In this document: one piece after another, positions 31,070 to 57,003 of the stretch
Position numbering within the stretch: position 1 is the first letter of the stretch
Layout: the number at the start of each line of letters is the position of its first letter
Source: Ferroplasma sp.
Lineage (GTDB): Archaea > Thermoplasmatota > Thermoplasmata > Thermoplasmatales > Thermoplasmataceae
DNA: 64,000 bases
Reading direction: 5' to 3'
Assembly (NCBI RefSeq): GCF_031200575.1
Contig: NZ_CP133597.1
Span: forward strand, 1,054,001-1,118,000
Notes under the pieces: generated by a model
Database searches by the model: none
Seen by the model: only the letters and a program-made list of their open reading frames with translations
Told to the model about the DNA's origin: nothing
Made by a program: the position numbers and the translations under genes

Positions 31070-31563
31070 ATTTCAACACTGACGACGAGGTAAGATATTT
31101 AAAAGGCTCTGTACATCTATTATTGGTGGGGCAGTCTAAAGGCCATATTAGTAGGGTAATAGAAATATTTGAACCGATACATTTGGATCTGTTCACATCA
31201 GCAGAAATGTTAGATCAAGTTACAGAGTTCATCAGTTCGACGAATTCATATAAAGGTTCATATCATATATCTGTAATTCCATCTTTTACAGAATATAGTT
31301 TATTTTCAGGTATTTCTATTATTTACTCACGTTATAAAAGCTTAAAATTAAGTTTCCCAGGAATTAGAATCTACTTTGGTATTACTGGCGGGACAAATAC
31401 TATGGCTGTTGAAATGGCCTTAAGTGCAGTAATGGTAAAAGAACCCATGCATTATATGGTAAAAGCTCAGGGGAGTAAGGATACTACAGATGATGTAATC
31501 CTATTCGATAGTGAAGAATTAAACAGAATGATTAAAAATAGTACAATTGGTGGAGGGAGATAA
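31066..31563 (+). CDS. Stand-alone CARF-like protein
   Basis: A 165-residue single-domain protein. HLLLVGQSKGHISRVIEIF gives the first strand and loop, and IRIYFGITGGTNTMAVEMAL carries TGGTN at 107-111, the ligand-binding motif typical of CARF domains. There is no attached effector, so it may sense a nucleotide and pass the signal to the NYN nuclease or helicase, or degrade the ligand as ring nucleases do. It overlaps the NYN gene by 4 bp and abuts the helicase gene. Confidence 0.65.
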   Translation: MNFNTDDEVRYLKGSVHLLLVGQSKGHISRVIEIFEPIHLDLFTSAEMLDQVTEFISSTNSYKGSYHISVIPSFTEYSLFSGISIIYSRYKSLKLSFPGIRIYFGITGGTNTMAVEMALSAVMVKEPMHYMVKAQGSKDTTDDVILFDSEELNRMIKNSTIGGGR

Positions 31564-34296: not shown

Positions 34297-34313
34297 AAAA
34301 TAGAGGTGGACAT

Positions 34314-35390
34314 ATGATAAGTAATGAGATAATAATGGAGAGAGATATTGAGTATGAAAGTGTTGACTGCATTGCAACTATAAGGGTAAAAACACAAAAT
34401 GAATATATAATTACCATTTTACGCATAGCTGATAAATTTGGATTATTAACTCCTGAGAATTTGAGGAATAACCTATTGCCGGAACAACCACTCGGGATGG
34501 CAGAAAATATTATTGAACATTACAAAGCTATTGGGTTTATCGAAGAGTCCGGCGCTCTTACAGAATTAGGTAAAATGGCAGTTAATGGCGACGTTTATAT
34601 GCCAGAACAGGGAGAATACACAATATATGCCACCCAAGATAAACTTTTCAATAATCCTGTTATTGAAATTTCTAGGATTAAACGGAATGAAAATAAGGAA
34701 AAGTCCGTAGAAAAACCAAACATGCTGGTAGGATTTGTCAGTCAACCCACTATAGTTTTATTGGATGGCCACAAAGAAGAGGTAATCATAGAATCTATAA
34801 GTAATAAGGTTCAGCCCATTAAATCTAAGGGTAATTTTAGCGTTGAGGCCAGATGCAATGGTAACAGTGATGTAACCCTAAGAGAAGAAGGAAAGCCCCT
34901 ATATACATTTCAGAATAACCTACTTAAAATAGATGATGTATGGAATGCATTAATCAAAAGCAAATCCCTTAAGTGGAAAGGGGCCCCTCTCCAGAACGGA
35001 ATTTTACTGTTAAGTTATGACAGCACCAGGCTAGAGGAAAGGAAGTCATTTACCAGAACTATAGATGAAATGAAATTGTATTTAAGTGAATTCGGAACAT
35101 TGAAGATCAAGCCTATTACAGTGAATATTCAACCATTATCGCAAAATGATGCAGACCTATGGGCACAGGATGTAATTGAAGACAAATTGGTTGATTTTTT
35201 AACTGAGGATAAATTTATAAATATATCAGAAAAAGTAAAGAAAAAATTTAGAGTGCATATTCCTAAAACTCCGACCCGAAATGATATGATAACAATACTG
35301 TACAATAAGTCGATAAAGAATGGAGGTGGAGTGCCCAGGGAATACTGGTACTTGCAGGCCCCAGTTGACCTGAATATGGAGGTTGAGTAA
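34314..35390 (+). CDS. Unknown protein of CARF module, wHTH-like N-terminus
   Basis: A 358-residue protein with a preceding GAGGTGG ribosome site. Residues about 28-85 (YIITILRIADKFGLLTPENL ... ALTELGKMAV) look like a winged helix; the rest is mixed alpha/beta without a motif I recognise. The end (PREYWYLQAPVDLNMEVE) runs directly into the PLD gene with TAAATG. Constant neighbours would be the best guide to its role; here it joins a helicase and a PLD nuclease, so an adaptor or DNA-binding subunit is likely. Confidence 0.55.
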   Translation: MISNEIIMERDIEYESVDCIATIRVKTQNEYIITILRIADKFGLLTPENLRNNLLPEQPLGMAENIIEHYKAIGFIEESGALTELGKMAVNGDVYMPEQGEYTIYATQDKLFNNPVIEISRIKRNENKEKSVEKPNMLVGFVSQPTIVLLDGHKEEVIIESISNKVQPIKSKGNFSVEARCNGNSDVTLREEGKPLYTFQNNLLKIDDVWNALIKSKSLKWKGAPLQNGILLLSYDSTRLEERKSFTRTIDEMKLYLSEFGTLKIKPITVNIQPLSQNDADLWAQDVIEDKLVDFLTEDKFINISEKVKKKFRVHIPKTPTRNDMITILYNKSIKNGGGVPREYWYLQAPVDLNMEVE

Positions 35391-36881
35391 ATGGTAAGCA
35401 ATAATATTTATAAAGGAATCGATTTTAATAAGATTATCGATAATGGAAATAAAATAATAGGACCAGTTTTATTGAAGCAGGATCATGTTGAATCAGAAAG
35501 TATAATTTCTGGAAAGCATGATATCTTCCAGCCCGGATCTGCCAATCTCATAAACGAAGTAGTTAAAGTGATCTCACAGACCAAGCAATTCCTCTGTGTT
35601 AGCAGCTTCCTTATACAGGACTCCAAAATTATCGATGAAATCAGAAAATGCTATGAAAGGGGCGCTAGGGTATATATTTTAACGGCTGCAGAAACGCAGT
35701 TATCTGATCCTAATGAAGATGATGATAGCACTTTAGAAGCTAGAAAAAAAGCTTCCCGAGATATGTTGAACAATCTAGGTTCACATGTGCTTATTCACAC
35801 AGGAAATAATCTGCATGCTAAATTTCTTGTATCCGATCCGAAAACACAGCCGAAGGCTATTGTATTCACATCCAATTTAACCGTCAGAGCGCTTACGGAA
35901 AATATTGAACTTGCCGTTGAGTTATCGGAAAAATTGGAAGTAATGGAATTATTCAGGCAATTTTTATACGGGTTCTGGGCAATAGCCGAAAGAGAATTAG
36001 ACCCATATAGAAAGTTGTCTCCTATTAATAGGCATCCAGAATTCTTAGATATAAATTATAAACCAGAAAAGCTGAAATGGACTTTAGATAATCAATTACT
36101 GATTAAAGATGTGCTGGAAAAAATGATTGACTCTGCTGAGACATATATATCGCTTTCTGCCTGGACTATAGATTCAGAACATCCTTTGGCAGAGAAAATA
36201 ATTAAAAAGGCTTCCGAGGGTGTAAAAGTTACTTTATTTACAAGGCCACATAATGCAAATAAGGAGTTTATTAGCAAATTAATCAGCAACGGTGGCACTG
36301 TATACTGTCATAAATTATTGCATGCAAAATCTATAATTGTGGACGGCAAAGATGGACTAATTATGACTGCTAATATATCTAAATTAGGGCTCGATGAAGG
36401 GTTTGAAACTGCGGTAATTTTAACCAAAGCACAGATAGATACTTTAGCTGAAATACATAGAGAATGGCAGTACAGATGTGAATACAAGAGCGAACAGAAC
36501 ATAATGTTGAAGGATATAAAAGATCGGTGGATTAATTTAAATAGGAGTTTTGAAGAATTACCAAAACCAGAAAAAACGGAAATACATTTAGAAGTTACAG
36601 CTAAAACGTTAAGGGATTATTATGATGGAAATATAGATCCATATATACCTATAAAAGAACAGAAAAATACAGATAACAAAGAAATCCATTATACTATTAC
36701 CCTCCTGCCACCAACGCTCCCCCCTGAGGTAGAAAAGATGAAACCCAAAGAAGAAAACAACTTAAAAATTTATCATACCAAGAAGGGAAACTATATCTGT
36801 ATCAAAACAAAGGAACAACTGCCAGAGGCAGAGGAATTATCCAAACAAAATCATGCGATAATTGTTTTATGTAACGAATAA
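35391..36881 (+). CDS. Phospholipase-D-superfamily nuclease with two HKD motifs
   Basis: A 496-residue protein with two PLD domains. The first HKD is LHAKFLVSD at about residue 140 followed by FTSNLT, the second LHAKSIIVD at about residue 310 followed by MTANISKLG; both keep His and Lys. Such double-HKD proteins hydrolyse phosphodiesters and commonly serve as nucleases in defence operons. About 110 C-terminal residues are extra and proline- and charge-rich. It abuts the wHTH-like gene. DISARM also uses a PLD protein (DrmC), but DrmC is smaller, so this one is assigned to the CARF module. Confidence 0.8.
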   Translation: MVSNNIYKGIDFNKIIDNGNKIIGPVLLKQDHVESESIISGKHDIFQPGSANLINEVVKVISQTKQFLCVSSFLIQDSKIIDEIRKCYERGARVYILTAAETQLSDPNEDDDSTLEARKKASRDMLNNLGSHVLIHTGNNLHAKFLVSDPKTQPKAIVFTSNLTVRALTENIELAVELSEKLEVMELFRQFLYGFWAIAERELDPYRKLSPINRHPEFLDINYKPEKLKWTLDNQLLIKDVLEKMIDSAETYISLSAWTIDSEHPLAEKIIKKASEGVKVTLFTRPHNANKEFISKLISNGGTVYCHKLLHAKSIIVDGKDGLIMTANISKLGLDEGFETAVILTKAQIDTLAEIHREWQYRCEYKSEQNIMLKDIKDRWINLNRSFEELPKPEKTEIHLEVTAKTLRDYYDGNIDPYIPIKEQKNTDNKEIHYTITLLPPTLPPEVEKMKPKEENNLKIYHTKKGNYICIKTKEQLPEAEELSKQNHAIIVLCNE

Positions 36882-37543: not shown

Positions 37544-39208
37544 ATGGAGAGTCTTACAGAAAAAGAAAAATCAGAATTCCTAAAATATTACCTTGAATAC
37601 GAAAAAGAGTTAAAAACAAATCCTGATTGGATAAACGATAGAGAGGCACATATAGAGCATAAAAAAGATTTGGAAAAATATCTTTCTAAAGATAAAATAG
37701 GAAAATTGGCAAAAAATGAACTTATTGAATTATTAAAAACGTTATGGGCAAACAATATGTGGCTAGATGTTGATGGTAGATTTATAAAAGGAAACAATAA
37801 TGATTTTGAAATGGTTAGGGATGAAATAGCTAAATTACTTTATGGTGAAGGCGATATAGCAAATAGAATTAATAACTTTTATGTGAAGATAAAGTACTTT
37901 GGAATATCTAATTTGTCAGAAATGCTTAATTTTTCATTTCCAGATAAATATCCATTATGGAACGTTAAGGCAATAGAAAATGTTAAAAGTATTACTTTTT
38001 ATAACAAAGGTTTTCAGCAGATAGGAGAATCAAGCCTAAATACAAATAGCAAGAAAGGCAACGACTATCAAAATGTAATAGATGCTATAACTGCAATAAA
38101 AGATTCCATTTCTAATTCAGTGGGGATAAAACTAGACTTCATTCAAATGGATAGTATAATTTCTTATACAGCCGGACACTACAACCAAGAAGAAAAACCA
38201 AAAACAACTAATACCAAGCAAAACGAAGATAAAGAACAAGAACTAAAATACCCTTCACTTCCAAAAAACATAATACTTCATGGTCCGGTGGGAACCGGTA
38301 AGACATACCTTGCAAGAAAACTAGCAAACTACCTTGCCAAAGGTCAAATAATAAATTTATCCGAAATAGAGACTTTGCTGAATGAAAATATTGACCCTAA
38401 AAACCATGAATTATTTCCAATTGAAGATAGCAATTTTCGTATGGTAACTTTCCATCAGTCATATGGATATGAAGAGTTCATTGGTGGCATAACGGCCGAT
38501 ACCGATGGCAATGCAATAAAATATCATATAAAAGATGGTATATTTATGGAACTGTGCCAACAGGCAAGAGAACATATGGATAGACCATATGTCATTCTCA
38601 TCGATGAAATCAACAGGGGAGATATTTCAAGAATATTCGGCGAGCTTATTACCCTAATAGAGGAGGACAAGCGATATATCAATGAAGCTTCACCAGGTAT
38701 TTCCATTACTGTACCTAACTTCAAGGATAAATTTTCTGTACCTGACAATGTATTTATTATTGGCACGATGAACGATTCAGACAGGAGCATAGCACTTTTG
38801 GACGTAGCTCTACGGAGGAGATTCATTTTCTTTAATGTGCCGCCTAACAGTAAGGTGCTAGAAGGGTGGATTAAAGATGAGGGCCTAAAATCAAAAGTAA
38901 CCAATGCTTTCAGCGCTTTAAATCAGAGGATAGAAAAAGAAAAAGATGTGGATTCAGAAATAGGCCATGCCTTCTTTAAAAGCCTTGAAAACACCAATGA
39001 CGAAAGAAAAGAACTGGTTTATATATTTAAGTACAAAATTTTTCCACTTCTCAATGAAATTTTTTACAGCCAGAATAATGAATTAAAGGAGCTAATACCA
39101 GATGATTTTAACGGGCAAAAACTGAATCTAAATAATATAGAAAATTATCTTGATTATTTAAGCAACCTTATAAAATCAGGCGATTCTAGTGAATATGGGA
39201 AGCAGTAA
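37544..39208 (+). CDS. mcrB: McrB-type restriction GTPase
   Basis: A 554-residue protein. The N-terminal 230 residues form the recognition part; YFGISNLSEMLNFSFPDKYPLWN resembles a helix-hairpin-helix-like element found in related proteins. The AAA+ domain starts with ILHGPVGTGKTYLARKL near 246, then YVILIDEINRGDISRIFGEL near 350 and GTMNDSDRSIALLDVALRRRF near 407-425, the McrB signature (MNxxD and the arginine finger region). McrB hexamers use GTP to drive McrC cleavage of DNA containing modified cytosine. The N-terminus is not the DUF3578 of E. coli McrB, so the recognised modification may differ. It overlaps mcrC. Confidence 0.87.
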   Translation: MESLTEKEKSEFLKYYLEYEKELKTNPDWINDREAHIEHKKDLEKYLSKDKIGKLAKNELIELLKTLWANNMWLDVDGRFIKGNNNDFEMVRDEIAKLLYGEGDIANRINNFYVKIKYFGISNLSEMLNFSFPDKYPLWNVKAIENVKSITFYNKGFQQIGESSLNTNSKKGNDYQNVIDAITAIKDSISNSVGIKLDFIQMDSIISYTAGHYNQEEKPKTTNTKQNEDKEQELKYPSLPKNIILHGPVGTGKTYLARKLANYLAKGQIINLSEIETLLNENIDPKNHELFPIEDSNFRMVTFHQSYGYEEFIGGITADTDGNAIKYHIKDGIFMELCQQAREHMDRPYVILIDEINRGDISRIFGELITLIEEDKRYINEASPGISITVPNFKDKFSVPDNVFIIGTMNDSDRSIALLDVALRRRFIFFNVPPNSKVLEGWIKDEGLKSKVTNAFSALNQRIEKEKDVDSEIGHAFFKSLENTNDERKELVYIFKYKIFPLLNEIFYSQNNELKELIPDDFNGQKLNLNNIENYLDYLSNLIKSGDSSEYGKQ

Positions 39209-40463
39209 TTTAAAAACCCTCTATGAATACGAACCCTGCATGGACAACGACATAATCCATGAACTCAATGAGCTTACATCCCGTAATGAGGAGCTATCTA
39301 AATTTATGGAAATTACTAAGACATATGTAAAATTCAAGCATTATACAGGATTTATCCCAACAAAGAATTATCGAATTCAGGTGCTTCCAAAGATCAGGAA
39401 CCTAGATTTGGATGAAAAGAATAGCAGTAATAATCTTATCAGGATTCTTCTTTATGTTTTCTCGCCACCCGGGGCGAGTATCCCTAAAGTAGAAATTAAG
39501 GATAATACAGAACTCGATATACTAGATCTAATAATACGAATGTATGCCATAACACTTGGAGAACAGATACTACAGGGAGCATATAGAAAATACATTAGAC
39601 TTTCTGAGGAAAGTAAATTTTTAAAGGGAAAGCTTAATATCGCCAAGCAGATAAGTAGAATGGATCAGTCAAAATTTTCGGTTATAGATTTCAGGTTTTC
39701 TATGGACAACGATCTTAATCGGTTCTTTGCACATGCAAACAGGTATTTTATGCAGTTTACACATGACAGGGCAAATGCAAACCTTCTGGCATGGATAGAT
39801 AGCATTCTTCATGATGAGGATATATCACCATGGCATCAATGCAAGATTAGTTTCAACAGGTTAAATGAAAGATTCAGAATTCCTTACATATACGCAAGTT
39901 TAATACTGCAAAATAAGTTGATGCTGTCTGGAGAAAGCTATAATACTATGGCCATGATATTTGACATGAATAAGATATTTGAAAGGTTTTTTACAGAATT
40001 CATATGCAGGAATAAGAGGGAAATATTTGGCAATGAAATTCTACACATAAGGGTTCAGGAAGGAGATTATAATTTCATATATGATAATAATGCTATAAGG
40101 TACACAAAGCCAGATTTAATATTATTTCTTAAGGATTCTACATGTATATTTGATACAAAATACAAGAAACTGGATGAACCAAAAATCTGTGAACTCAAGA
40201 AGAAAAATGATAAAGTTCATTCAATAGCACCCAGTGATCTTTATCAGATGTACGCATATTCCCAGATATATCATTCCAAGAACACAATACTAGTATTTCC
40301 AGGAGCAGAAAGCAAACTCAGTAAATCATACAGATTTACTGAAAATGGTAATAAAAAACTCTGGGTATATATGCTCAAACTGAATCTTAATAATAATTGG
40401 GAATCAGACCTAGTCCAGAATTTTAAGCACGATTTCACGGAAATCCAAAATCAGGATCATTGA
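39195..40463 (+). CDS. mcrC: McrC-type nuclease subunit
   Basis: A 422-residue protein with the McrC order: an N-terminal beta-rich part (YVKFKHYTGFIPTKNYRIQVLPKI), the middle helices, and a C-terminal PD-(D/E)xK nuclease with KPDLILF near residue 305 and CIFDTKYKKL near 320, then SDLYQMYAYSQIY. The start is ATG 39195, inside the mcrB end (14-bp overlap); the GTG at 39189 is less likely. McrC stimulates McrB hydrolysis and cuts DNA between modified sites. Confidence 0.87.
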   Translation: MGSSNLKTLYEYEPCMDNDIIHELNELTSRNEELSKFMEITKTYVKFKHYTGFIPTKNYRIQVLPKIRNLDLDEKNSSNNLIRILLYVFSPPGASIPKVEIKDNTELDILDLIIRMYAITLGEQILQGAYRKYIRLSEESKFLKGKLNIAKQISRMDQSKFSVIDFRFSMDNDLNRFFAHANRYFMQFTHDRANANLLAWIDSILHDEDISPWHQCKISFNRLNERFRIPYIYASLILQNKLMLSGESYNTMAMIFDMNKIFERFFTEFICRNKREIFGNEILHIRVQEGDYNFIYDNNAIRYTKPDLILFLKDSTCIFDTKYKKLDEPKICELKKKNDKVHSIAPSDLYQMYAYSQIYHSKNTILVFPGAESKLSKSYRFTENGNKKLWVYMLKLNLNNNWESDLVQNFKHDFTEIQNQDH

Positions 40464-40755: not shown

Positions 40756-40825
40756 GTCACACCTCAGAAAATATATAAGTTATTAACTTATAAATATTAC
40801 GAATTTATAATTATAACATGTTGTC

Positions 40826-41745
40826 TCGTTATAATGTAATTCTTTTGCTGTAAATTTAAAATGACTCTTTGCAATATCATAATGAGGTAAACAAAATGAC
40901 AAATGCAAAGAGTCAATTAATAAGTATAGAAGAACTAATAAAGCTTTTCATAAATGATAGAAAAGAGGGAAAGAAAGAATTGATTACATGGTTTTTAAAC
41001 AATGTAATGGATCAGGAGGCCATTGAACAATTAAATGCTGATAAATATGAAAGGAACAATAAAAGAACAGGATACAGGAATGGTTACAAGAAGAGAAAAT
41101 TAAAGACATTAGATGGAGAACTAATATTAGACAAGCCTGATATAAGGTCAGGATCTTTTACAACTAAGGTATTTGACAAATACTCCACTGTTGAAAAGGC
41201 TTTAAACTCTGTAATAGTTGAGTCATATATTAATGGGATATCAACCAGGTCTGTTAATAATATAATAAGTAATCTAGGTATAAATGTATCGCCTGAGTAT
41301 GTATCATCACTGAATAAGGATCTTGATATAAAAGTTAAGGAATTCTTAGAAACATGGATAGATGATAAAATAAAATACCTGTACATAGATGCAACATACT
41401 TTAAAGTCAGGGAAAATAGTAAATACACATCAATGGCATTATACACATCAATAGGTGTAAACAGCATTGGAATAAGGCAGATTCTTTCCATGGATGTTTA
41501 TAATTCAGAGGATGGGATGGACTGGAATAATTTCTTCTTCAAGTTAGGGGAAAGAGGATTAATAGGAGTACAGCTGGTAATATCAGATGGCCATAAGGGG
41601 ATAATGAATGCAGTTAAAGAGTCATTTCAAGGATCATTATGGCAGTACTGCCATTTCCATTTCCTTAAGAATTTAAGAAAGACAATGAATAAGGAACAGT
41701 GGAAGGATATATCAAAAATAGTGTCAGAGGCATTAATGGATGAAT
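40826..41745 (+). mobile_element. IS256-type element, truncated by IS110 fragment
   Basis: The left end (TGTAATTCTTTTGCTGTAAA) is followed by a transposase from ATG 40896 that repeats the protein at the window start: MTNAKSQLIS, RTGYRNGYKKRKLK, YLYIDATYFKVREN and VISDGHKGIMNAV (second Asp). It loses homology after KIVSEALMDES near 41745, where minus-strand IS110 sequence begins, so the third catalytic residue and right end are gone. The first TTG in frame at 40869 lies within the element end and is not the start. Confidence 0.82.
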
Positions 41746-42262: not shown

Positions 42263-42751
42263 GCTAAATAAGGTTTTTCATGATTTCTTCCTGCTATGTT
42301 CTCCATGGAATGATGTGTATGAATATAATGGGTCATGGTTATGGATCGATTACTTTCATGGACTTTATTATCTCCATGGGCAGAGGTAAATTGAATATAA
42401 ATATGAACGGAAATGGATGAGTAATAAGGGAGATGCAATGAATTAGAGGCATTTGATGTGTATTGATAGCTTCAGCCATGCAGCTGAAGTGTATTTCTCC
42501 TTCTGAACCGGGTAAAATATTCAGTTATGTGTTGCTTATAGCACTACAGTCATGGCAATTCATGTAGCAAAGAGATAGAATAACATGATGTTTTCGTGTT
42601 AAAGGTCTGTATTACATCGTCTGCTATTTACACATGCGAAGAATCTGCGTATAAACAAAAATTTTTATACACGATACACATATTTAACTCATCATGTTTG
42701 CAATATCTTTTTATCGGACTTTTTCAAGTATAATTATGACGGGGGTGTTAT
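42263..42751. other. Intergenic region before the DISARM-like operon
   Basis: No supported gene. A hairpin CTTCAGC-CATGCA-GCTGAAG lies at 42470-42489. ACACATGCGAAGA near 42632 recurs near 2920, suggesting IS debris. The right end carries the operon promoter (AAGTATAATTA near 42728) and the ribosome site GGGGGTG 5 bp before ATG 42752. Confidence 0.4.
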
Positions 42752-45700
42752 ATGAATCCTGCTTCTATTGAGCTAATAAGGAATGTAAGGCAGCAACTAC
42801 TTGGACCTGCTGGAACATATGATGAATGTATATTTGATAATCCGGTAAACAGGTATGTTGTTGGGATCATTAAACCATATTATGCTAACCATGACAGTAA
42901 TCTAGAAGGCGAATATGTTTTAGATACCGGAGGTGTAGAGGAAGGGGACGAAATAAAGCAGGATACGAAACCACAGCTTAATTCATTTGGCATTTCGTTC
43001 AAAATGATCAATGGCACATTTAACGTTCTTGTAAGTTATGGAAAATATCATCAGGTAAAATTGAATAATAAAGATGTCTATAAAAGACAGTCCGTGCGTC
43101 ATAATAAACTTGGTATAAAAGGTACCTGTGAGTTTATACTCGAATATACAGATTTCAGCACAGTAATATTAAAAGTAGATGAGTATAATGGATATTTTAA
43201 TGTTATGGTTTATAACAAAGCAAATCAGAAAATTAAATATGATGATATATATAGATATTCACTGTTCCAGCCTTCTATAAGAATTAATGTAACTGGGGGT
43301 CTAATAGACACAGAAGCTTGTGGAAATGTAACTGATTCAAACATAAAATTTCTGTATAGGGATACTAAAGAGCTTGCAAGGGGAAAAAATTGTGCTGCTA
43401 TATGGAAGGCTCTCGATGTAGAAAATGAAAATGATAGCGTAAACATCAAGCTTAACAGTTGGCCAGATTATAGTGATAATTACAAAGATTTCTACATCCC
43501 GGATATAAGAACGGATTTCATGCCTGTATATAAATCCTATATTCCTGAAACAAGAAAACTCGAAACAGAATTTAATGCAGAGAACATGGCGGAAAAAAAT
43601 TCCAGCATGGAAAATCTTGATATTCTTATAAACGAGTATAGATCATGGATCACTTCCATAACACCCGCCGTTCCTAAAGATGAAATTCAGGTGAAAACAA
43701 ATATTGAAAATCTTTTAGAGACATGTAATAGAATGGAACGTGGTTTGCAGATCCTCAGAGGTAATAAAGATGCTTCGAGGGCATTCAGGTTTGTCAACAG
43801 AGTTATGGCGACAAATTCTCAGTGGCATCGCAGAGATAGCAATAGCAGTTTTAACTGGAGGGCTTTTCAGATTGCATTCCTGCTAATGGAAATTGAATCA
43901 ATTACAGATCCTGCGTCTGTAGACAGGGATAAAATGGACATACTATGGGTCCATACCGGTTCTGGTAAAACAGAGGCTTATCTGGCTGTTGCCCTTTTTG
44001 ACATAATTTGGAGAAGGTATAAAAGTTCAGGTAAAGATGATAATCCCGGCACGTCCATTATAACAAGATATACCCTGAGACTCCTCACATCACAGCAGTT
44101 CCGCAGAACAGTAGATCTAATTGTGGCTGCCGAATATGTAAGAAATAATTTTGAAGAATTTAATGATAATATTAATTGTCCAATTTCTGCGGGTATGTGG
44201 GTTGGAGGTGGGATGACACCCAATAAAATATCTGATGCAGTTAAAGTAATTCAAAATTCAGTAAAAGGCGAATCTGAGAAGTCAGAAGGGGATCCGGTGC
44301 AGCTATATAAATGCCCTGCATGTGGTAGCTGGCTTGCGATTCCCACGGGTGGGATAAGGGCAGGCACTCCTATATTCGCTGCGGGACCTTGTGGTGGTGT
44401 TACAACAACAGCTGATGTAGACATACAACTACTAAAAGAGGAAAGTGTGTATGGCGCACGGATGGGTGTTTATAGAATAGTATTTCCTAATAAAATGGAA
44501 AGGGAAGATATTATAAATTCTACATTATATGAAGACTTTCATGAAGCTGGAACATATCTAAATATTCCCGGATATAGAATAAGTCATGACCATAAAGATA
44601 TCTATATTACATGCATGAATCCAGAATGCCGCATATTTAATACCAGAATACCTGTTTATACTGTTGATGATCAAATATACAGCAGAAAACCATCAATAAT
44701 AGTGGCTACAGTTGATAAATTTGCAAATATCCCTTTTAACCCTCTGGCCTCCAATATACTTGGAGATATTAATAAAAAAACAAAACCGCCGGATCTGATT
44801 ATTCAGGACGAGATGCATCTTCTTAACGGTCCCCTTGGAAGCCTTTTTGGGCTCTATGAGAATATGGTTGATGCCATTATAGAAAATAGGGGAGATTTAA
44901 AGGTTAAATACATAGGTGCCAGTGCAACTGTTAGTAGCGTGGAGGATCAGGTTTCACTGCTTTTCGCCCGTAGGGCCTCGGTTTTTCCGCCAAGTGGGAT
45001 TCAACAGGATGAAAATTTCTTTTTTACCAAAGATTATGGTGAAAATCATAGAACTAGGATATATGCCGGCATTATGGGAGCACCAGATTTGGGGGTGCAG
45101 ACCCCACTAATACGGCTAATGGCCCAAATTATTGCGTTCAGGGAAAATTTCAGGGACACCTCCGATCTTAAAAATTTTTATACGCCTGTATTCTATTTTA
45201 ATTCAATAAAGGAGCTTTCCATAGCCACATCACTTTTCAGGGAGGATGTCAGGGAATTGCTTGAAAAATTTACCCCGCCAGTTAAACTTGATACAGCAAA
45301 TTATGAGGAACTCTCAGGCAAGGCAAAATCTGCAGAGATACCGGTAAAACTTGATCGTCTTGAAAGCTGGAATATTACACCAGAGGAGAATACAGGGGCA
45401 TTATTTACAACGTCTATGTTCGGAACCGGTGTGGATATCTCAAGACTCACAGAGATGATAATGAGTGGACAGCCAAAATCAACATCGGATTATATACAGG
45501 CAACCGGCAGGATCGGCAGATCGGCGGATGGTGTGGTGTTTGTGTTATATAATCCCCTAAAACCACGCGACATCAGTCATTATGAAATGTTCATGCAGTA
45601 CCACAGCAGAATTAACATTTATGTTGAGCGTTCCCCTGTTTCACCCTTTTCCACTGGATCCATGGAGACCGGCATGGGTGCTACAATCACTGGATTTGTC

Positions 45701-47752
45701 AGGGCGGTCGAACCAGAACTACGTGATGATCCTAGTAAAATATTAATATATAAGGGTTCAATATTCGATGATTTTATAAGGAAAACCGAAGATAGATTAA
45801 GATCTATGGATATAAAAAGTGGAGATATAATTTCTGAAATACATAGAGATAGAGATAAATGGCATCAAATTGTATCAAATCAAAAAAGTAAAGTGATATA
45901 CAGAAGTAATCCATATAAGATGCCACCTCCAGATGACGTTATTATTCTTGGTTCATCGCGTGATACTGTGATGCATCCTCTAGCCAATATAGTATTTAAA
46001 AATGTTCCAAATTCTCTCAGGGAAGTGGATGATATCGCGGTATTTGGACACAATAAAACAGCCGAGTATACAATTAGGCAAACCCAATTTGTTCTATCAT
46101 TTGGTCCAGAATCCATACTTGAGGGTGATCATGGTTCCTACCTCATCCAGCGTGCGGGTTTATACGGAATTCAGTCATCATACTACCTTCCCCAGACTGT
46201 ATCAAACAATACAATTGATGAAAGTAATGGGTATGCTAGAAATCTAATTGCCAGAAAATTTAATTATAACGCCGAGTATATAAAGTTTATATCATTACCG
46301 TCGAATGAATATGTAGGAAAAAATGACCAGACACCTATATATGAAGTTATGCCTTTCCCTACGTGGGGAATCTGCAGTAATGTAAATAATCATAGAAAAA
46401 AAAGCAGCATACTGTATCAATATCTAAAAAAGACTAAAAACATAACCAAAATAATAGGATGCCCAGAATGCGGAAGCTATAAATATACTCCGGTAAGATT
46501 TGTTTCTGCTTGCCCCATGGGGCATCTGGATGATGTAAACTGGAATTTTTCAGTTCATGGTGGCAATATGTGCTACCCGAATTATTATTACTGGGATGCT
46601 GGTGGGTACTCACTCAAGTCTATACATATTGAATGCAGTAAATGTGGGAGGAAGACCAATATGGGAAATATTTATGGGGTGTATAATAAGAATATGATCA
46701 AATGCCCTATACCTGACAACAAAGGAACAGTGTGTGGCATGAATATGTCCATCGCACAGCGTGATTCAAGCTCATTAAGACTTCCAGAGATAATTACATT
46801 ACTCAATATTAACAGTACAGGTAAAGTACCGCAAAACACCGAAGAAAAACTAATTGAGGCAGCTGGAAATGCATGGAAGAGATACAATGATATAAAACTG
46901 TTAGAATCTATCCTCCTTAAACTGGATGAGGTAGATCCTAAAAAACACCAGGAGATAATCTCCAATCCAGATAAGTATTACTTTGGCAACAGCAGTGATG
47001 ACATTATTGGTATTTTCAGGAATGAATTCAGATATCTCTCAGAATCTACAGGTAGTCTTATTGATGAAGAATTCCGTATGGGGGAGTTTACCGCAGCCAA
47101 GAACCATAACTATAATGGAAATGTGTATTATAGACCAATACAGAATATATCTGCAATTGCTATTCAGACGTCATATATCAGGAATACTGGAGGGAAAAAA
47201 GTAAATCATGTATCTGTCCCATCATGCACAGAATACCGGGGAGAGCATTACTTTCCTGCAACAATCCTGTCAGGCGACGCAATTTTCATAAGGTTTAATA
47301 ATATCAAAATACATAGTGAGTATACACATTCTGAATTTAATAGCACAGTGTTTGACAAATATCCGCTGGATTATACATTTACATATTTGCATACGCTGTC
47401 ACATAGTATATTAAGAGCAATATCAGAATATACAGGATATTCCCTCCCATCAATTAGAGAAAGGATTTATGCATTTGGGAATAGCGGTGGTATCCTTATA
47501 TATACAACAGGTGTAGGTAGCGATGGTAGTATGGGTGGACTCGTGGATCTTGTAAATCACGATAAAATGGAAAAAATTCTTGATGATGCAATTCATAATG
47601 TCAGTATATGCTCAAACGATCCTTTCTGTCTCAACACTAAAATGACAGCGGATAAATACAATGGTTCGGCATGCTACAGCTGCATACTTTTACCCGAAAC
47701 GTCATGTGAATATGGTAATAAGTATCTTGACAGAAATGCAGTTTTAATGTGA
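42752..47752 (+). CDS. DrmA-DrmB fusion: DISARM helicase with DUF1998 half
   Basis: A 1666-residue protein. Residues about 400-1090 are DrmA-like: Walker A HTGSGKTEAYLA at 401, RYTLRLLTSQQFRR near 438, the SF2 DExH box IIQDEMHLLNGPLGSLFG near 684 and motif VI QATGRIGRSADG near 918, then NVPNSLREVDDIAVFG at the end. A CPACG knuckle lies near 521. Residues about 1105-1666 are DrmB-like: IRQTQFVLSFGPESILEGDHG, CPECG, VRFVSACPMGHLDDVNW, HTLSHSILRAI, IYTTGVGSDGSMGGLVDL and CYSCILLPETSCEYGNKYLDR (DUF1998). In known DISARM loci these are two genes. DISARM blocks incoming phage DNA. Strong GGGGGTG ribosome site. Confidence 0.85.
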   Translation: MNPASIELIRNVRQQLLGPAGTYDECIFDNPVNRYVVGIIKPYYANHDSNLEGEYVLDTGGVEEGDEIKQDTKPQLNSFGISFKMINGTFNVLVSYGKYHQVKLNNKDVYKRQSVRHNKLGIKGTCEFILEYTDFSTVILKVDEYNGYFNVMVYNKANQKIKYDDIYRYSLFQPSIRINVTGGLIDTEACGNVTDSNIKFLYRDTKELARGKNCAAIWKALDVENENDSVNIKLNSWPDYSDNYKDFYIPDIRTDFMPVYKSYIPETRKLETEFNAENMAEKNSSMENLDILINEYRSWITSITPAVPKDEIQVKTNIENLLETCNRMERGLQILRGNKDASRAFRFVNRVMATNSQWHRRDSNSSFNWRAFQIAFLLMEIESITDPASVDRDKMDILWVHTGSGKTEAYLAVALFDIIWRRYKSSGKDDNPGTSIITRYTLRLLTSQQFRRTVDLIVAAEYVRNNFEEFNDNINCPISAGMWVGGGMTPNKISDAVKVIQNSVKGESEKSEGDPVQLYKCPACGSWLAIPTGGIRAGTPIFAAGPCGGVTTTADVDIQLLKEESVYGARMGVYRIVFPNKMEREDIINSTLYEDFHEAGTYLNIPGYRISHDHKDIYITCMNPECRIFNTRIPVYTVDDQIYSRKPSIIVATVDKFANIPFNPLASNILGDINKKTKPPDLIIQDEMHLLNGPLGSLFGLYENMVDAIIENRGDLKVKYIGASATVSSVEDQVSLLFARRASVFPPSGIQQDENFFFTKDYGENHRTRIYAGIMGAPDLGVQTPLIRLMAQIIAFRENFRDTSDLKNFYTPVFYFNSIKELSIATSLFREDVRELLEKFTPPVKLDTANYEELSGKAKSAEIPVKLDRLESWNITPEENTGALFTTSMFGTGVDISRLTEMIMSGQPKSTSDYIQATGRIGRSADGVVFVLYNPLKPRDISHYEMFMQYHSRINIYVERSPVSPFSTGSMETGMGATITGFVRAVEPELRDDPSKILIYKGSIFDDFIRKTEDRLRSMDIKSGDIISEIHRDRDKWHQIVSNQKSKVIYRSNPYKMPPPDDVIILGSSRDTVMHPLANIVFKNVPNSLREVDDIAVFGHNKTAEYTIRQTQFVLSFGPESILEGDHGSYLIQRAGLYGIQSSYYLPQTVSNNTIDESNGYARNLIARKFNYNAEYIKFISLPSNEYVGKNDQTPIYEVMPFPTWGICSNVNNHRKKSSILYQYLKKTKNITKIIGCPECGSYKYTPVRFVSACPMGHLDDVNWNFSVHGGNMCYPNYYYWDAGGYSLKSIHIECSKCGRKTNMGNIYGVYNKNMIKCPIPDNKGTVCGMNMSIAQRDSSSLRLPEIITLLNINSTGKVPQNTEEKLIEAAGNAWKRYNDIKLLESILLKLDEVDPKKHQEIISNPDKYYFGNSSDDIIGIFRNEFRYLSESTGSLIDEEFRMGEFTAAKNHNYNGNVYYRPIQNISAIAIQTSYIRNTGGKKVNHVSVPSCTEYRGEHYFPATILSGDAIFIRFNNIKIHSEYTHSEFNSTVFDKYPLDYTFTYLHTLSHSILRAISEYTGYSLPSIRERIYAFGNSGGILIYTTGVGSDGSMGGLVDLVNHDKMEKILDDAIHNVSICSNDPFCLNTKMTADKYNGSACYSCILLPETSCEYGNKYLDRNAVLM

Positions 47753-47757
47753 GATAA

Positions 47758-50175
47758 ATGATATATAAGTATTTTTTTAAGTATCCTGCATGTCCCCAGT
47801 GTGGTGCCCCTATATATAACCCGGCAAAGGTCAAAATTGATGCTCAAAACAAAAGATACATATGTGGTGGATGGGAAGACTGCCATATATTTAATAAAGA
47901 ACTACCATGGAAAATTAATTTAAACCCTGCAGAAAATGCGTATATAGAATGGATAACTGCAGGTATCAGCGGTATTCATGCTGTCAACTGGCCATTTCCT
48001 AATAGGCCTTTATTTCTAGCTGTTGCCGCAGATACAATCTCTCACATTCTTGATAGGAATGTTCTTCTGATAACTATGTCTGATAAACCAACTGAAAACG
48101 TTTTAGAGGAGACTAGTGTACATGAAATATTATCAGGTCTGTATAGGGTAACAGGCGATCGTGTAAACAAACAATCCCAGGGAATAAGTAAGAAAGATAT
48201 TTTTCCAATTATACGTAACGCGTGGGAATATAACATAGATGGAATTATTAAGGGTAAAATCCCGGTAAAATCTTTCTGGAAAGATATAGCGGACAATTAT
48301 GGCGTTACACGTGAGAGGCTAAATCTCAGAAAAATCCCCAATGGCTCACGATTTGGAACTATAAATTGTTATAACGTTATGGATTACAGTGAGTTCTACT
48401 CTAGTTCATCCTCAACTGTCAGGGAATTAGTTACTGTAATTAAATACATATCACAAGAATCCGTTTTAAATTATATTAGGGAGCGGGATCCGGCTATTGT
48501 TATTATTGATGCCGGCAGTAACACAGATATTCTTGAATTTTTACTTAAGGATTATTGCATACCTGTAGTGGCATTTACAGACTATGACATGAATACTGTA
48601 AAGAAGCTCATTAACAATGGCATTAAATTTCACCCATTAAAGTCCACTGAATTCATGAATGCTTACAGCCTAATATGTCATGCTGGGAATCTATACCGCT
48701 CAAGAAAATTTAATATTGAATATATTGAATATAGTACACGTAATATTATAATACCAGGATCATTGCATATAGATAACGAAATGGTAGAGAGGCTCAGGCG
48801 TATAGAACTCAAATCAATTCTTACTCTAAGAGATATATCTAATATTACTGTACGTAATGATAATATCTCTAAACTTATAGATGATGTATATTCTCTTTCA
48901 AGAGATGCGGGAGATATCTTTAGAAAAATAATTGAGGATAAATTTGGATCGGGCCTAAATATAAACCCATGGCGCAATGAATTTATTAATATTATAAAGG
49001 AAAGGAAGATGAATGAAAACTGGGCAATTATGGCGGGGAAATTTCTCGATAGTTACTTAAAATCGGAAGGAATTACTCTTCATACCCTCCTGCCTGCTGA
49101 TGTTGCGGGCCTAAGAACTAAGGGCATTATGATTCCCGGGATCTACGGTAATTTTAATTTCAGCACACTGAACACTGAAAAAATACTTGTCTGTGGAACG
49201 AGCGAATTGCTTGAATATGCACGTTATTATATTAAAAACTCTAAGTGCCAGAAATTTTACAGACCATTTGTTGAGTATACTGGCGATATGCCACGACTCA
49301 TCAGAGCTGTTATCGATAGTATTAATTATAATGAGTTTAAAGAGTACAGTAAATATGGTAGCGATGATATCGACTATTATACTGAGATTCACCCAATAGA
49401 AGATAAAATTAGAAATACAATTAAGTCGGGCGATGAAGCCGTATATATCTATGGAATAGACGGAAGGTATACTATCATACCAGCAGGTGTGGAGATATAT
49501 GTTATCAGAGGTAGAAGCATTGAATCTATAAGGTTATCAGAGAAAAATATCTATAAACTTCCGGGAACATATATACTCTTTGACAGAAGTGGACTATATA
49601 GATCCATACATCTTGAGCTTCTGCAATTCATTCTTAATAGTGGTGATATTGAAACAGTTCGTGTGGGCGGCAGAAGTGTTAGTATAATAGATATTTTCAA
49701 TAAATCACGAATGTGGATACACGGGCTATCAAAACTATCCAGAATCATCTCAGCAGAGAATATTGCATCAGATCTTAAAAATCTTGAATTAAGTGCAGAA
49801 AATGAATCATATTTAAAAAGATGGTGGGTTCCGATAGAGACTAGGGATGATACAGTGAGCTTATACATAGCCGATAGCCCAAAAACCCTAAATGATATGA
49901 TACGTATATTTGGATATCTAAAAGATAAACTTGGAGATGAATCATTCAGCAATAACGCTGCTGTTGAATGCTATAATGATGTAAGTATAATGCACAGACT
50001 TTCAAGAAATATACTGCACGGTGAGTACATTGATCTTTCTAGGAAATTTTTTAACTTAATTAATGGGGCAACGGATAACGCACGTTTATTGATCAAAAGA
50101 GCAACGCTTGAAAAAGTTAATAATGACACGGATGCATATACCATAAATTATCCAGAGGGTATGGGGGCTGAGTAA
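47758..50175 (+). CDS. Zinc-ribbon protein at DrmE position, function unknown
   Basis: An 805-residue protein starting 5 bp after the DrmAB stop. A four-Cys ribbon lies at the N-terminus (Cys12, Cys15, Cys36, Cys42 in ACPQCGAP and ICGGWEDC). The middle (about 230-320) has Rossmann-like text (AIVIIDAGSNTDILEFLL, IPVVAFTDYDM), and a later section (YVIRGRSIESIRLSEKNIYKLPG) is beta-rich. I see no nuclease or NTP-binding motif. Class 2 DISARM contains a large unknown protein, DrmE, of similar length; position and size make a DrmE relation plausible but unproven. Confidence 0.55.
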   Translation: MIYKYFFKYPACPQCGAPIYNPAKVKIDAQNKRYICGGWEDCHIFNKELPWKINLNPAENAYIEWITAGISGIHAVNWPFPNRPLFLAVAADTISHILDRNVLLITMSDKPTENVLEETSVHEILSGLYRVTGDRVNKQSQGISKKDIFPIIRNAWEYNIDGIIKGKIPVKSFWKDIADNYGVTRERLNLRKIPNGSRFGTINCYNVMDYSEFYSSSSSTVRELVTVIKYISQESVLNYIRERDPAIVIIDAGSNTDILEFLLKDYCIPVVAFTDYDMNTVKKLINNGIKFHPLKSTEFMNAYSLICHAGNLYRSRKFNIEYIEYSTRNIIIPGSLHIDNEMVERLRRIELKSILTLRDISNITVRNDNISKLIDDVYSLSRDAGDIFRKIIEDKFGSGLNINPWRNEFINIIKERKMNENWAIMAGKFLDSYLKSEGITLHTLLPADVAGLRTKGIMIPGIYGNFNFSTLNTEKILVCGTSELLEYARYYIKNSKCQKFYRPFVEYTGDMPRLIRAVIDSINYNEFKEYSKYGSDDIDYYTEIHPIEDKIRNTIKSGDEAVYIYGIDGRYTIIPAGVEIYVIRGRSIESIRLSEKNIYKLPGTYILFDRSGLYRSIHLELLQFILNSGDIETVRVGGRSVSIIDIFNKSRMWIHGLSKLSRIISAENIASDLKNLELSAENESYLKRWWVPIETRDDTVSLYIADSPKTLNDMIRIFGYLKDKLGDESFSNNAAVECYNDVSIMHRLSRNILHGEYIDLSRKFFNLINGATDNARLLIKRATLEKVNNDTDAYTINYPEGMGAE

Positions 50176-50177
50176 AC

Positions 50178-51125
50178 TTGGAGAAAAATAACAGATTAAA
50201 AATGCTGGACATGTTTTCTGGTATGGGTGGGATGTCTATCGGATTCGCACGCAGAGGCTTTAGTGTTACAGGTATCGATATAGAACCTTTTGCAGTTGAT
50301 TCTTATAATAAATTAACAGGTGGAACTGGTTCTGCTGCAGATTTACGGGAGATAACTATTAAATCTAATTATGATGTTATTGCTGGTGGTCCGCCTTGCA
50401 GACCTTGGTCAACAGTAAATCTAAAAGCACGTAAAATGCATCATAGAGATTATGATCTTGTACAGAAATATTTCAGCATAGTGACTGATAAGATGCCTAG
50501 GGTGTTTATTATGGAGAATGTACCTGCAATAATGAATGATCCTGTTATAGGGGAATCAATTAATAATGCTGTAAAAATGGGATACACCGTTAAAACTGGT
50601 ATCATTAGATATTCAGATTATGGGGCTGCGACTGCCCGACAGCGGTTCTTTGTAACTGGTGTAAAAGGGGAGAAAAATAATATATTCGAATACCTCGCAA
50701 AACAAATTAAAATCACAAAAACTGTACGCGACGCTATATGGCCATATAGGCATCTAAATGAGGGCGCAACTCCGGACCATGTCTGGCCACATCTTAGAAC
50801 AATTTCAAAGTATTCTGATAAATATAGAACAGGAAAATATGGATGGAGGTGGTTGAAATGGGATGAACCGTCTCCCTCTTTCGGAAATGTTATGAAAACG
50901 TATACACTTCATCCAAACTATCCACCTGAAAACCCTAATGCACGTGTAATATCTGTTCTTGAGGCACTGAGAATAATGGGATTTGATAATTTTGAATTTC
51001 CTAAATATATACCAATGGGTAAAAGATACCAGATGGTGGTAGATTCAATTAGCCCTGTTTTTTCATATACACTTGCAGGGGTGATTAAAGATGTGCTCAG
51101 AGAAGCCAGGACAGTTACAGCATAG
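50178..51125 (+). CDS. DNA (cytosine-5) methyltransferase (DISARM DrmMII-type)
   Basis: A 315-residue C5 methyltransferase: motif I MFSGMGGMSIGF (SAM binding), motif IV GGPPCRPWS with the nucleophile Cys74, motif VI MENVP with Glu113, motif VIII TARQRFF, a target-recognition stretch about 205-255 and motif X (SPVFSYTLAGVI). It methylates cytosine in a short site, marking host DNA. It begins with TTG 50178 right after the DrmE-position gene; ATG 50202 is the alternative. No cognate restriction endonuclease is adjacent; DISARM itself would use the mark. The end overlaps the glycosylase gene by 35 bp. Confidence 0.87.
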   Translation: MEKNNRLKMLDMFSGMGGMSIGFARRGFSVTGIDIEPFAVDSYNKLTGGTGSAADLREITIKSNYDVIAGGPPCRPWSTVNLKARKMHHRDYDLVQKYFSIVTDKMPRVFIMENVPAIMNDPVIGESINNAVKMGYTVKTGIIRYSDYGAATARQRFFVTGVKGEKNNIFEYLAKQIKITKTVRDAIWPYRHLNEGATPDHVWPHLRTISKYSDKYRTGKYGWRWLKWDEPSPSFGNVMKTYTLHPNYPPENPNARVISVLEALRIMGFDNFEFPKYIPMGKRYQMVVDSISPVFSYTLAGVIKDVLREARTVTA

Positions 51126-51750
51126 GGTAGGAGGAGAGATTATAAAATTGGGAGTAAATAATTATCGCAGTTTCCCATGGAGATTTACCTACGATCCTTA
51201 CCTTGTTGCAGTTTCAGAAATTCTTTTAAGAAGGACAAAGGCAGTTCAGGTAGGTATGGTATATAATCAGATAATAGAAAGATATCCTTCAGTGCAAAAG
51301 ATGGTAAATATACGGGATGACGATGTCATGTTATCCTCGCTGGGTCTCCATTCCAGAGCACGAATATTGCGTAAATTTGCAGGTCAAATTGTTGATATTT
51401 ATGATGGTATTATACCGGAAGAGCGAAAAAAACTTCTAGCGATAACAGGATTAGGGGATTACAGTACATCCGCTATACGTGTATTCGCATTCAGGCACAT
51501 TGATCCATTAATTGATGCTAACACTGTAAGGATAATATCAAGAATAAATGGCATTCCGTTTTCCGATTCATTAAGAAGAAGTAAAATAATACATAAGAAA
51601 TATGAAGAAATAGCTAAATTATATGATCCAGTAGTGTTTGGTTATTCTATCCTTGACTTTGGTGCTCTGATTTGTGGCACTGTTCCTGTATGCGGTATAT
51701 GTTCCCTGAATAGCGTATGCCAGTATGCAATAAACCATACTAATAAATGA
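51091..51750 (+). CDS. Mig-type T/G mismatch DNA glycosylase (HhH-GPD, Fe-S)
   Basis: A 219-residue HhH-GPD protein. FPWRFTYDPYLVAVSEILLRRT, the helix-hairpin-helix TGLGDYSTSAI and the catalytic Asp142 in PLIDANTVRI match the thermophilic mismatch glycosylase Mig. The residue where endonuclease III has its lyase Lys is Tyr124, as in Mig, so a monofunctional T/G (and U/G) glycosylase is expected. A Fe-S cluster Cys195, Cys201, Cys204, Cys210 is present with spacing 5-2-5 rather than 6-2-5. It repairs deaminated 5-methylcytosine made by the coupled methyltransferase. ATG 51091 lies in the upstream gene; TTG 51148, 11 bp after AGGAGGAG, is an alternative start. Confidence 0.82.
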   Translation: MCSEKPGQLQHRVGGEIIKLGVNNYRSFPWRFTYDPYLVAVSEILLRRTKAVQVGMVYNQIIERYPSVQKMVNIRDDDVMLSSLGLHSRARILRKFAGQIVDIYDGIIPEERKKLLAITGLGDYSTSAIRVFAFRHIDPLIDANTVRIISRINGIPFSDSLRRSKIIHKKYEEIAKLYDPVVFGYSILDFGALICGTVPVCGICSLNSVCQYAINHTNK

Positions 51751-52718
51751 ACTTGTATCCAATTCGACCTCTTCTACCATTGCCATATATTTTTTCTGTG
51801 ATAGTTTACATGGGTACCTCGCTTTAATTTGTCTAAATTAACTTTTAAAAAATTAGATATTATCATTTAATTAATATATAAATACAAATTATATATTATA
51901 ATTATCCATATAAATATATTTATATAAATAAATATCTATAAATAAATATTATAAAAATAATTAATCTATACTTTATTTTAATTATAATTATATTAATATT
52001 ATTTCTGAAAGACTGTTATAATATGCATTATGCAAATAAAATATGCATATGTTAAAGTTATATTTATGTGACTTATATTACGTTCCAAGTAAACTTAATT
52101 CCTTAAATCGTTTATAAATTCCTCATATATAATATTCATTTATGTACTTTGGATCATAATCTATTCATCGCTCATATTCATAATTACCTCGCTTATACCA
52201 CAATAATTCCCGTATTCCTAATATACTCTCAAAATAATGCAGTATAACAAACGTTATACGGCGTTTTTGCTTAAATACTTTTTATACTGTAGTGATTTTA
52301 TGAAAATACAGTAGAATGCAGGCTGCTGGATGCCCTTTCGTGGCATGACAAACCCATTTTTGCTGGATCTATCCATATTCCTATATTGTACAGTAAGGAC
52401 TGCTAATTATATGATTGCCTAAAATAAATATATATTATATATTATATTAAATTAATATTTATTTTATTTAATTAATAATTATTATTTAAATATAACTATT
52501 AAATAAAATATTATAATATAATTATAAAAACATTTTATTAATTATATAATAGTATAAGGATATTACTTAATTTTTTGAAAGTAATATGCAAATTGAAAAT
52601 AATTATTACCTCCAGGTTGTGGGATATATCGGTGCTTTACAGGAACTTTTCCCAGGAATCGCCAGAAGTTCGGTCAAACGCCCTCAGCCAATGCTCCTGA
52701 TTTCCTCAAATAGACTTT
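51751..52718. other. Very AT-rich intergenic region
   Basis: About 970 bp without a supported gene. The stretches 51850-52010 and 52420-52560 consist almost only of A and T in runs of ATAT/AATTAA. A more GC-rich island near 52300-52380 (CAGGCTGCTGGATGCC) and 52610-52710 shows no coding I can identify. It separates the defence island from the MGMT gene and may mark an old junction. Confidence 0.45.
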
Positions 52719-53405
52719 GTGCAAAACGATTATAAATCCCTCTTATATTATTCAGATATGAGTGGCGCTGCTGGGGAGAAATTCCATAAAGATACCATAA
52801 TCACGCATCGTTGTGACAGTTACAAATCACTGACAGAGACATCACAAATACAATCAGGAATAAGAACAGTAAAATATGGAGGCGATGGAAAGGGTGTTGA
52901 AATAAAATACAGGATATTTGCCTCTAAAATAGATAAAATACTTCTGGCGAAAACCGATAGAGGAGTCTGCAGCATCATTATTGGTGCTGACGAAGAATTG
53001 TTATATGGCTCACTCCAGAAACAATTCCCGCATGCTACATTGACAGAATCAGCTGGCATGCAGCCGGAAATTGATTCCATAAATCACTATCTGGATGGTG
53101 GATTGCTCGATATGCCGGTTGATATATGTGGTACTGAATTTCAGGTAAAGGTCTGGACAGCCATCAACGCAATACCCTATGGAGAAACCAAATCTTACAG
53201 TGAACTGGCTGAGGAGATAGGCATGCCTACTGCATACCGGGCAGTGGCCAATGCCTGCGGGGCGAATCCGGTACCTCTAATTATACCATGCCACAGGGTT
53301 GTTGGCAAGAATGGAAGTCTCGGAGGATATGGCCCGGGGATAGACAAAAAGAAATTCTTGCTTGAACTTGAGAAAAAGAATAAAGATAGCAATAAAGGAA
53401 ATTAA
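52719..53405 (+). CDS. ogt: Methylated-DNA--protein-cysteine methyltransferase (MGMT, Ada C-terminal type)
   Basis: A protein of 228 residues from GTG 52719, or 215 from ATG 52758. The active-site block LIIPCHRVVGKNGSLGGYG is complete, preceded by GTEFQVKVWTAINAIPYGETKSYSELA, the helix-turn-helix with the Arg finger (TAYRAVANACG). The text before it (VEIKYRIFASKIDKILLAKTDRGVCSI) aligns with the C-terminal half of E. coli Ada, and the N-terminal 40 residues look like a worn-down remnant of Ada's regulatory part. It transfers the methyl from O6-methylguanine to its Cys. Confidence 0.88.
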   Translation: MQNDYKSLLYYSDMSGAAGEKFHKDTIITHRCDSYKSLTETSQIQSGIRTVKYGGDGKGVEIKYRIFASKIDKILLAKTDRGVCSIIIGADEELLYGSLQKQFPHATLTESAGMQPEIDSINHYLDGGLLDMPVDICGTEFQVKVWTAINAIPYGETKSYSELAEEIGMPTAYRAVANACGANPVPLIIPCHRVVGKNGSLGGYGPGIDKKKFLLELEKKNKDSNKGN

Positions 53406-56525: not shown

Positions 56526-56841
56526 GTTATTCAAGGATGATACATACTCAGGAGATACATTTACTCCTAGATTATTTATTATATTATTTACTTACCTGAT
56601 TGATACCCGTTAATATATGATTCTGCTATTACAGAGTTTAAAGCCTTTTCAACAGTTGAATACTTATCAAACACAGTGGTTGTGAATGAACCTGACCTCA
56701 TATCAGGCTTGTCTAATGTTAGTTCACTATCCTTATTAGCTCTTACTCACATATTAATTGACTCTTTGTCTTTGTCATTTTGTTTACCTCATTATGATAT
56801 TGCAAAGAGTCATTTTAAATTTACAGTAAATATATTACACT
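56526..56841 (-). mobile_element. Decayed IS256-type remnant with internal deletion
   Basis: The sequence matches the element at the window start in two blocks: positions equivalent to about 246-450 (transposase middle) and 640-725 (start codon and left end). The part between them is deleted and the reading frame is broken by small indels. The end sequence AAATTTACAGTAAA is kept. It is non-functional by itself. Confidence 0.72.
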
Positions 56842-57003
56842 ATCTATAAATATATTGCCAGTTTCTTGATCTGGTAATAATATGGTTATACTTGAGATAA
56901 CATATAAAGATAAAATAATGATAAAAATAGAATTCCACCAGTTTACAGGATATACGATTAAAATGCTAATATTATAATCCCATATGTTTGCATGAACTTT
57001 AAA

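Follow-up and report, generated by a model that had tools for sequence, protein, structure and literature searches.

A class 2 DISARM variant with a derived DrmA-DrmB fusion and a Mig-like glycosylase gene in Ferroplasma

The 64,000-nt window (i.e., the whole stretch of DNA analysed here) carries a compact four-gene operon, in which drmA and drmB form a single open reading frame followed by the genes of an 805-aa zinc-ribbon protein, a C5-cytosine DNA methyltransferase and a glycosylase. Its features are listed below.

42741..42747, + strand: Shine-Dalgarno-like GGGGGTG 5′ of drmAB, read directly
42752..47752, + strand: drmAB fusion gene, 1666 aa, ATG start, with matches to the DrmA and DrmB models and to the 7S9V chains
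42752..46069, + strand: DrmA part (aa 1 to ~1106, boundary approximate), SF2 helicase; PADLOC DrmA match to residue 1098, 7S9V chain A, alignment
46070..47749, + strand: DrmB part (aa ~1107 to 1666, boundary approximate); PADLOC DrmB match at 1107-1664, 7S9V chain B
residues 1549-1645 of the fusion: C-terminal MZB/DUF1998 zinc-binding domain of the DrmB part (Pfam MZB)
47758..50175, + strand: putative divergent drmE, 805 aa, N-terminal zinc ribbon and predicted helicase-like body without Walker A (hhalign, predicted structure, motif check)
50178..51125, + strand: drmMII, C5-cytosine DNA methyltransferase, 315 aa, TTG start (PDLC02655, 4.4e-95; PF00145, 1.1e-38)
51091..51750, + strand: mig-like T:G mismatch glycosylase with FeS-cluster cysteines, 219 aa (1KEA, 5e-28; catalytic Tyr and Asp)

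The four genes had been described as running without gaps; the tight packing and the coordinates hold, but the array is not strictly gapless, with spacings of 5 nt and 2 nt followed by a 35-nt overlap. Genes 1, 3 and 4 each have a Shine-Dalgarno-like G-rich stretch ahead of their start codon. The operon is bracketed by the second and third of three copies of an IS256-family element (1-737, 40824-41562 and 56527-56844; ~85–92% alike), these two copies being mutually inverted and the third having an internal deletion, and the genes flanking the operon are themselves variable across the genus. Just upstream (37544-40463), a McrB-like AAA protein and McrC form a modification-dependent restriction pair, whose compatibility with the resident C5 methyltransferase would be of interest. 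Downstream of the operon, a gap of ~950 bp contains two very AT-rich, partly palindromic segments (51850-52000 and 52430-52560), and an Ada/Ogt-like O6-methylguanine DNA methyltransferase gene (52719-53405; DNA repair) is found ~1 kb after mig.

The original prediction of DrmA-type helicase motifs joined to a complete DrmB-type half within 1666 residues was borne out, and family models and structure show a complete DrmA linked to a complete DrmB, since the first two thirds of the product match the PADLOC DrmA model (PDLC02571, E=1.6e-250), the last third matches the DrmB model (PDLC02583, E=3.3e-112), and the only solved structures matching the fusion at E<=0.001 are chains A and B of the Serratia DrmAB complex (PDB 7S9V), each on its respective half. 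The C-terminal half was assigned to DISARM DrmB and to no other DUF1998 family, and NCBIfam DrmB_fam scored 333.7 bits, above its cut-off of 240. The DrmA half remained under the NCBIfam DrmA cut-offs (814 vs 999 and 610 vs 950 bits), these thresholds being meant for DrmA as a full-length protein of its own. The motifs quoted for both families are indeed present in the halves named, with Walker A HTGSGKT and DEMH retained in the DrmA half and the cysteine clusters in the DrmB half. Note that the Serratia complex is a class 1 system made of two separate chains, with a longer DrmA N-terminal part than here.

The 805-aa protein gave nothing significant when compared directly with PADLOC, Pfam and NCBIfam, and the PADLOC DrmE models matched neither this protein nor its archaeal relatives (988–1033 aa). 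Ten of these relatives were therefore aligned and compared with true DrmE proteins (L041, L056). While a profile of two DrmE sequences reached only 17%, the 13-sequence DrmE-family profile built afterwards gave an hhalign match of 94% to the archaeal family (E=1.4e-7, 366 collinear columns, in the C-terminal half), against 0.6% and 0.4% for the DrmA and DrmB controls, and the archaeal-family profile matched the L056 DrmE at 4e-5. Structures predicted for the 805-aa protein and for DrmE are of low confidence (mean pLDDT 67 and 62), with a similar order of elements in their C-terminal halves and with RIG-I/MDA5-like and other SF2 helicases as top matches at low TM-scores. Neither family has a conserved Walker A or DExH motif (two single-sequence matches were isolated), and a scan of viral contigs with DrmE returned no relative. 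The profile comparison and the similar order of predicted elements thus support the proposal that a zinc-ribbon protein stands in the place of DrmE, here as a putative divergent DrmE with a zinc ribbon, and we tentatively suggest from the predicted folds that DrmE may be a helicase-like protein devoid of ATPase activity.

Genes 3 and 4 proved to be the C5 methyltransferase and T/G glycosylase originally predicted: the DrmMII model PDLC02655 is the best match of gene 3 (4.4e-95; PF00145 at 1.1e-38), and the closest solved structure to gene 4 is Mig.MthI (PDB 1KEA, 5e-28), with which it shares the catalytic Tyr and Asp. Gene 4 also has the HhH-GPD fold and the FeS cysteines of a Mig enzyme, while differing from Mig.MthI by its location inside a DISARM operon and by an FeS loop one residue shorter. 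A MutY adenine glycosylase was rejected as its identity (131 bits vs the curated mutY cut-off of 286.5).

The fusion is not restricted to a single genome. A genome scan and a class-wide search revealed the identical four-gene order, with the same fusion and 79% identity, in another species of the genus (L023, identical to contig 115 of G637, Thermoplasmata archaeon WH5.bin18), so that the order sought in related genomes was indeed recovered, and the genome of that species contains a second fused copy (L024, 40% identical), followed by a gene of the 805-aa type at the contig end. Between the window and L023, dN/dS amounts to 0.151 for drmAB, 0.199 for drmE, 0.118 for drmMII and 0.157 for mig, while the 50 residues over the fusion junction are conserved like the rest (86% identity, dN 0.072, dS 0.597); purifying selection acts on each of the four genes and on the fusion junction. 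Fused proteins were found in 3 of 106 DrmA loci (the window, L023 and L024) when the ORFs of the retrieved loci were scanned for both domains, these loci being the nearest to the query rather than a census, with contigs ending before drmB in a few of them. None of the 18 DISARM loci from viral contigs is fused, and in plasmid records (best 12 of 87 matches) drmA, or a helicase, and the DUF1998 gene are always listed separately. In the DrmA tree (43 rows, quick search, no bootstrap), the three fused proteins form one clade (SH-aLRT 100) nested in a 14-row, mainly archaeal clade of split DISARMs (support 100), and only one change of state is needed.

Two alternative readings of the fusion were considered. 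As several split relatives have contiguous drmA and drmB that share a frame and are separated by just one stop codon, one base error could join the two genes, and the fusion might be an error of sequencing or assembly, or mark a gene in decay. However, an independent assembly of another species shows the same fusion and gene order, that species has a second fused locus, and purifying selection (dN/dS 0.12–0.20) spans the junction; hence the fusion is no artefact, and the probability of such an error is negligible. The single stop codon instead offers a short route to fusion. Alternatively, the protein could be a DNA-repair helicase of the YprA/MrfA type or a Dpd-type single-chain helicase, outside DISARM and single-chain by ancestry, as the wider YprA family usually carries its helicase and DUF1998 modules on one protein, with DISARM presented in a large survey as the one branch that consistently splits them between separate genes (PMC12458937). 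We regard this origin as highly unlikely, given that only DrmA and DrmB chains match among solved structures at E<=0.001, that DrmE and DrmMII are present in the operon, and that the fused clade is nested, with support of 100, inside split DISARM DrmA. Indeed, DpdJ, MrfA and related proteins likewise unite both modules in one chain but are not the nearest relatives, and the nesting in split DISARMs points to a single, derived fusion event and not to a single chain retained from the ancestor of the YprA family (PMC12458937).

Beyond the fused clade, the closest DrmA relatives belong to archaeal split DISARMs with Mig (L018, L025, L027, L031, L084, L149 and the congener L019), which have the same components in the order MII-Mig-DrmA-DrmB-(DrmC)-DrmE, but with separate DrmA and DrmB, usually with drmC, and with a methyltransferase ~100 aa longer than here. 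In one of them (L031:2169-5965, same in L151), drmA lies in two overlapping frames (1080 and 209 aa), through either a frameshift or an assembly error. Considering informative loci only (i.e., those showing DrmMII on the same strand as DrmA), Mig is next to DrmMII in 11 of 14 loci of the archaeal clade, including one (L032) in which it is only a weak glycosylase-like part of the methyltransferase ORF, and Vsr does so in 1 of 14, whereas 1 Mig and 14 Vsr were found among 45 loci elsewhere (Fisher p=0.0007, which overstates the significance because the loci are related). All nine Migs of the archaeal clade whose motif was readable retain the catalytic Tyr. The Vsr-type nickase genes counted outside the archaeal clade lie near the C5 methyltransferase of bacterial DISARM loci (e.g., L034, L056, L070 and L110). 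In addition, a single ORF of L032 (16361-18394) seemingly joins a C5 methyltransferase to a glycosylase-like HhH region, and one ORF upstream of drmA combines Vsr-like and methyltransferase-like matches in L047, L048, L049 and L050; these ORFs seem to link repair with methylation in DISARM loci.

No drmC was found next to the operon with the ORF list and the PADLOC models. The nearest PLD gene (35391-36881) lies ~6 kb upstream, past the McrBC pair and the IS256-family transposase; its product has two PLD domains and matches the DrmC models (8e-30), and could be a source of nuclease. It belongs to an operon (31066-36881) with an SF1 helicase and another protein, possibly a separate defence system. 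The claim that drmC is missing and a repair enzyme added therefore stands for the absence of drmC at the operon, but Mig is no hallmark of the fusion and was not acquired along with it, being common in split archaeal DISARMs, some of them with drmC. DrmC is reported to be dispensable and often missing in DISARM (PMC9142583), so its absence was not taken to exclude the locus from this system.

The place of Mig in the operon is open to two other interpretations. Since the two fused operons complete in view and the split operon of a congener (G065) have Mig and lack drmC, and base-excision restriction enzymes exist (PMC10273834), the glycosylase might be an effector that replaces DrmC and damages invading DNA through base excision. 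The restriction glycosylases treated in that work are R.PabI-like and not HhH enzymes; seven loci keep DrmC together with Mig (L018, L025, L027, L031, L084, L095 and L149), so that Mig is not simply a DrmC substitute; and in other loci this position is taken by Vsr, consistent with repair. We thus consider an effector role very unlikely, and no better a chance is given to its extended form, a base-excision DISARM in which the single-chain DrmAB of the fused clade would steer the damaging glycosylase to invading DNA. Mig and Vsr are unrelated T:G repair enzymes, and their presence beside the same methyltransferase type points to the repair of deaminated 5-methylcytosine; from these gene associations, Mig probably mends mutations arising from methylation. 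A Mig next to a C5 methyltransferase, as in the pair of Mig.MthI, is also known in ordinary restriction systems. The DrmMII-Mig pair could accordingly be an independent module (e.g., a type II restriction remnant) merely neighboring DrmAB and DrmE, all the more so as it precedes drmA in split relatives and follows drmE here, and hence moves as a unit. This seems improbable, as the pair recurs by DISARM genes in Thermoplasmata, Archaeoglobales and Methanosarcina with tight operon spacing, no restriction endonuclease gene lies in between, and the methyltransferase scores best with the DrmMII model.

Altogether, the locus is a class 2 DISARM variant in which DrmAB is a derived fusion and drmC is absent locally, the class definitions being based on PMC9142583, PADLOC and general knowledge. 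It represents a known defence system and not a new kind, filed as a variant because drmA and drmB form one ORF (as in L023 and L024). With class 2 DISARM (drmA, drmB, drmC, drmE and drmMII), it has in common DrmA, DrmB, DrmMII and a putative DrmE homologue in one operon, and it differs by the fused DrmA-DrmB, the absence of drmC, the added Mig and a putative DrmE so divergent that the PADLOC models miss it. Class 2 DISARM was already known in Archaea (PMC11705971), and the new element of this archaeal system is the fusion. Neither a DrmAB fusion nor Mig as a regular partner was described in the limited set of literature searched.

We consider it likely that the operon is a restriction-like defence system with covalent DrmAB, self-marking by DrmMII, a helicase-like DrmE and a Mig that protects the host, its antiviral activity being suggested by analogy. 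In class 1 DISARM, DrmAB is a 1:1 complex activated by unmodified 5′-overhang DNA (PMC9142583), and we extend this mechanism by homology from that class 1 system to the covalent class 2 DrmAB. DrmA, as an ATP-driven SF2 helicase, and DrmB, as its DUF1998 zinc-binding partner, would act as one polypeptide, making the 1:1 complex covalent. DrmMII would place 5-methylcytosine on the DNA of the cell, and DrmAB would load on unmodified DNA with single-stranded ends, such as that of viruses, and translocate along it, thereby blocking it or exposing it to nucleases. DrmE, which itself has no ATPase motif, may serve as a helicase-like scaffold or regulator, and a nuclease, if needed, would be supplied from elsewhere in the cell. 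Mig would take out T from the T:G mismatches that arise by 5-methylcytosine deamination, and would thus spare the host the harm done by its own methyltransferase rather than attack the virus.

The putative divergent DrmE family, which escapes the current PADLOC DrmE models, broadens the search for class 2 DISARM in Archaea. The recurrent pairing of the archaeal DISARM methyltransferase with T:G repair suggests that self-marking with 5-methylcytosine has a cost in mutations, which the operon itself may pay down. Finally, a derived and selected re-fusion within DISARM shows that DrmA and DrmB need not be separate chains, and the fusion offers a single-chain DrmAB for biochemistry.
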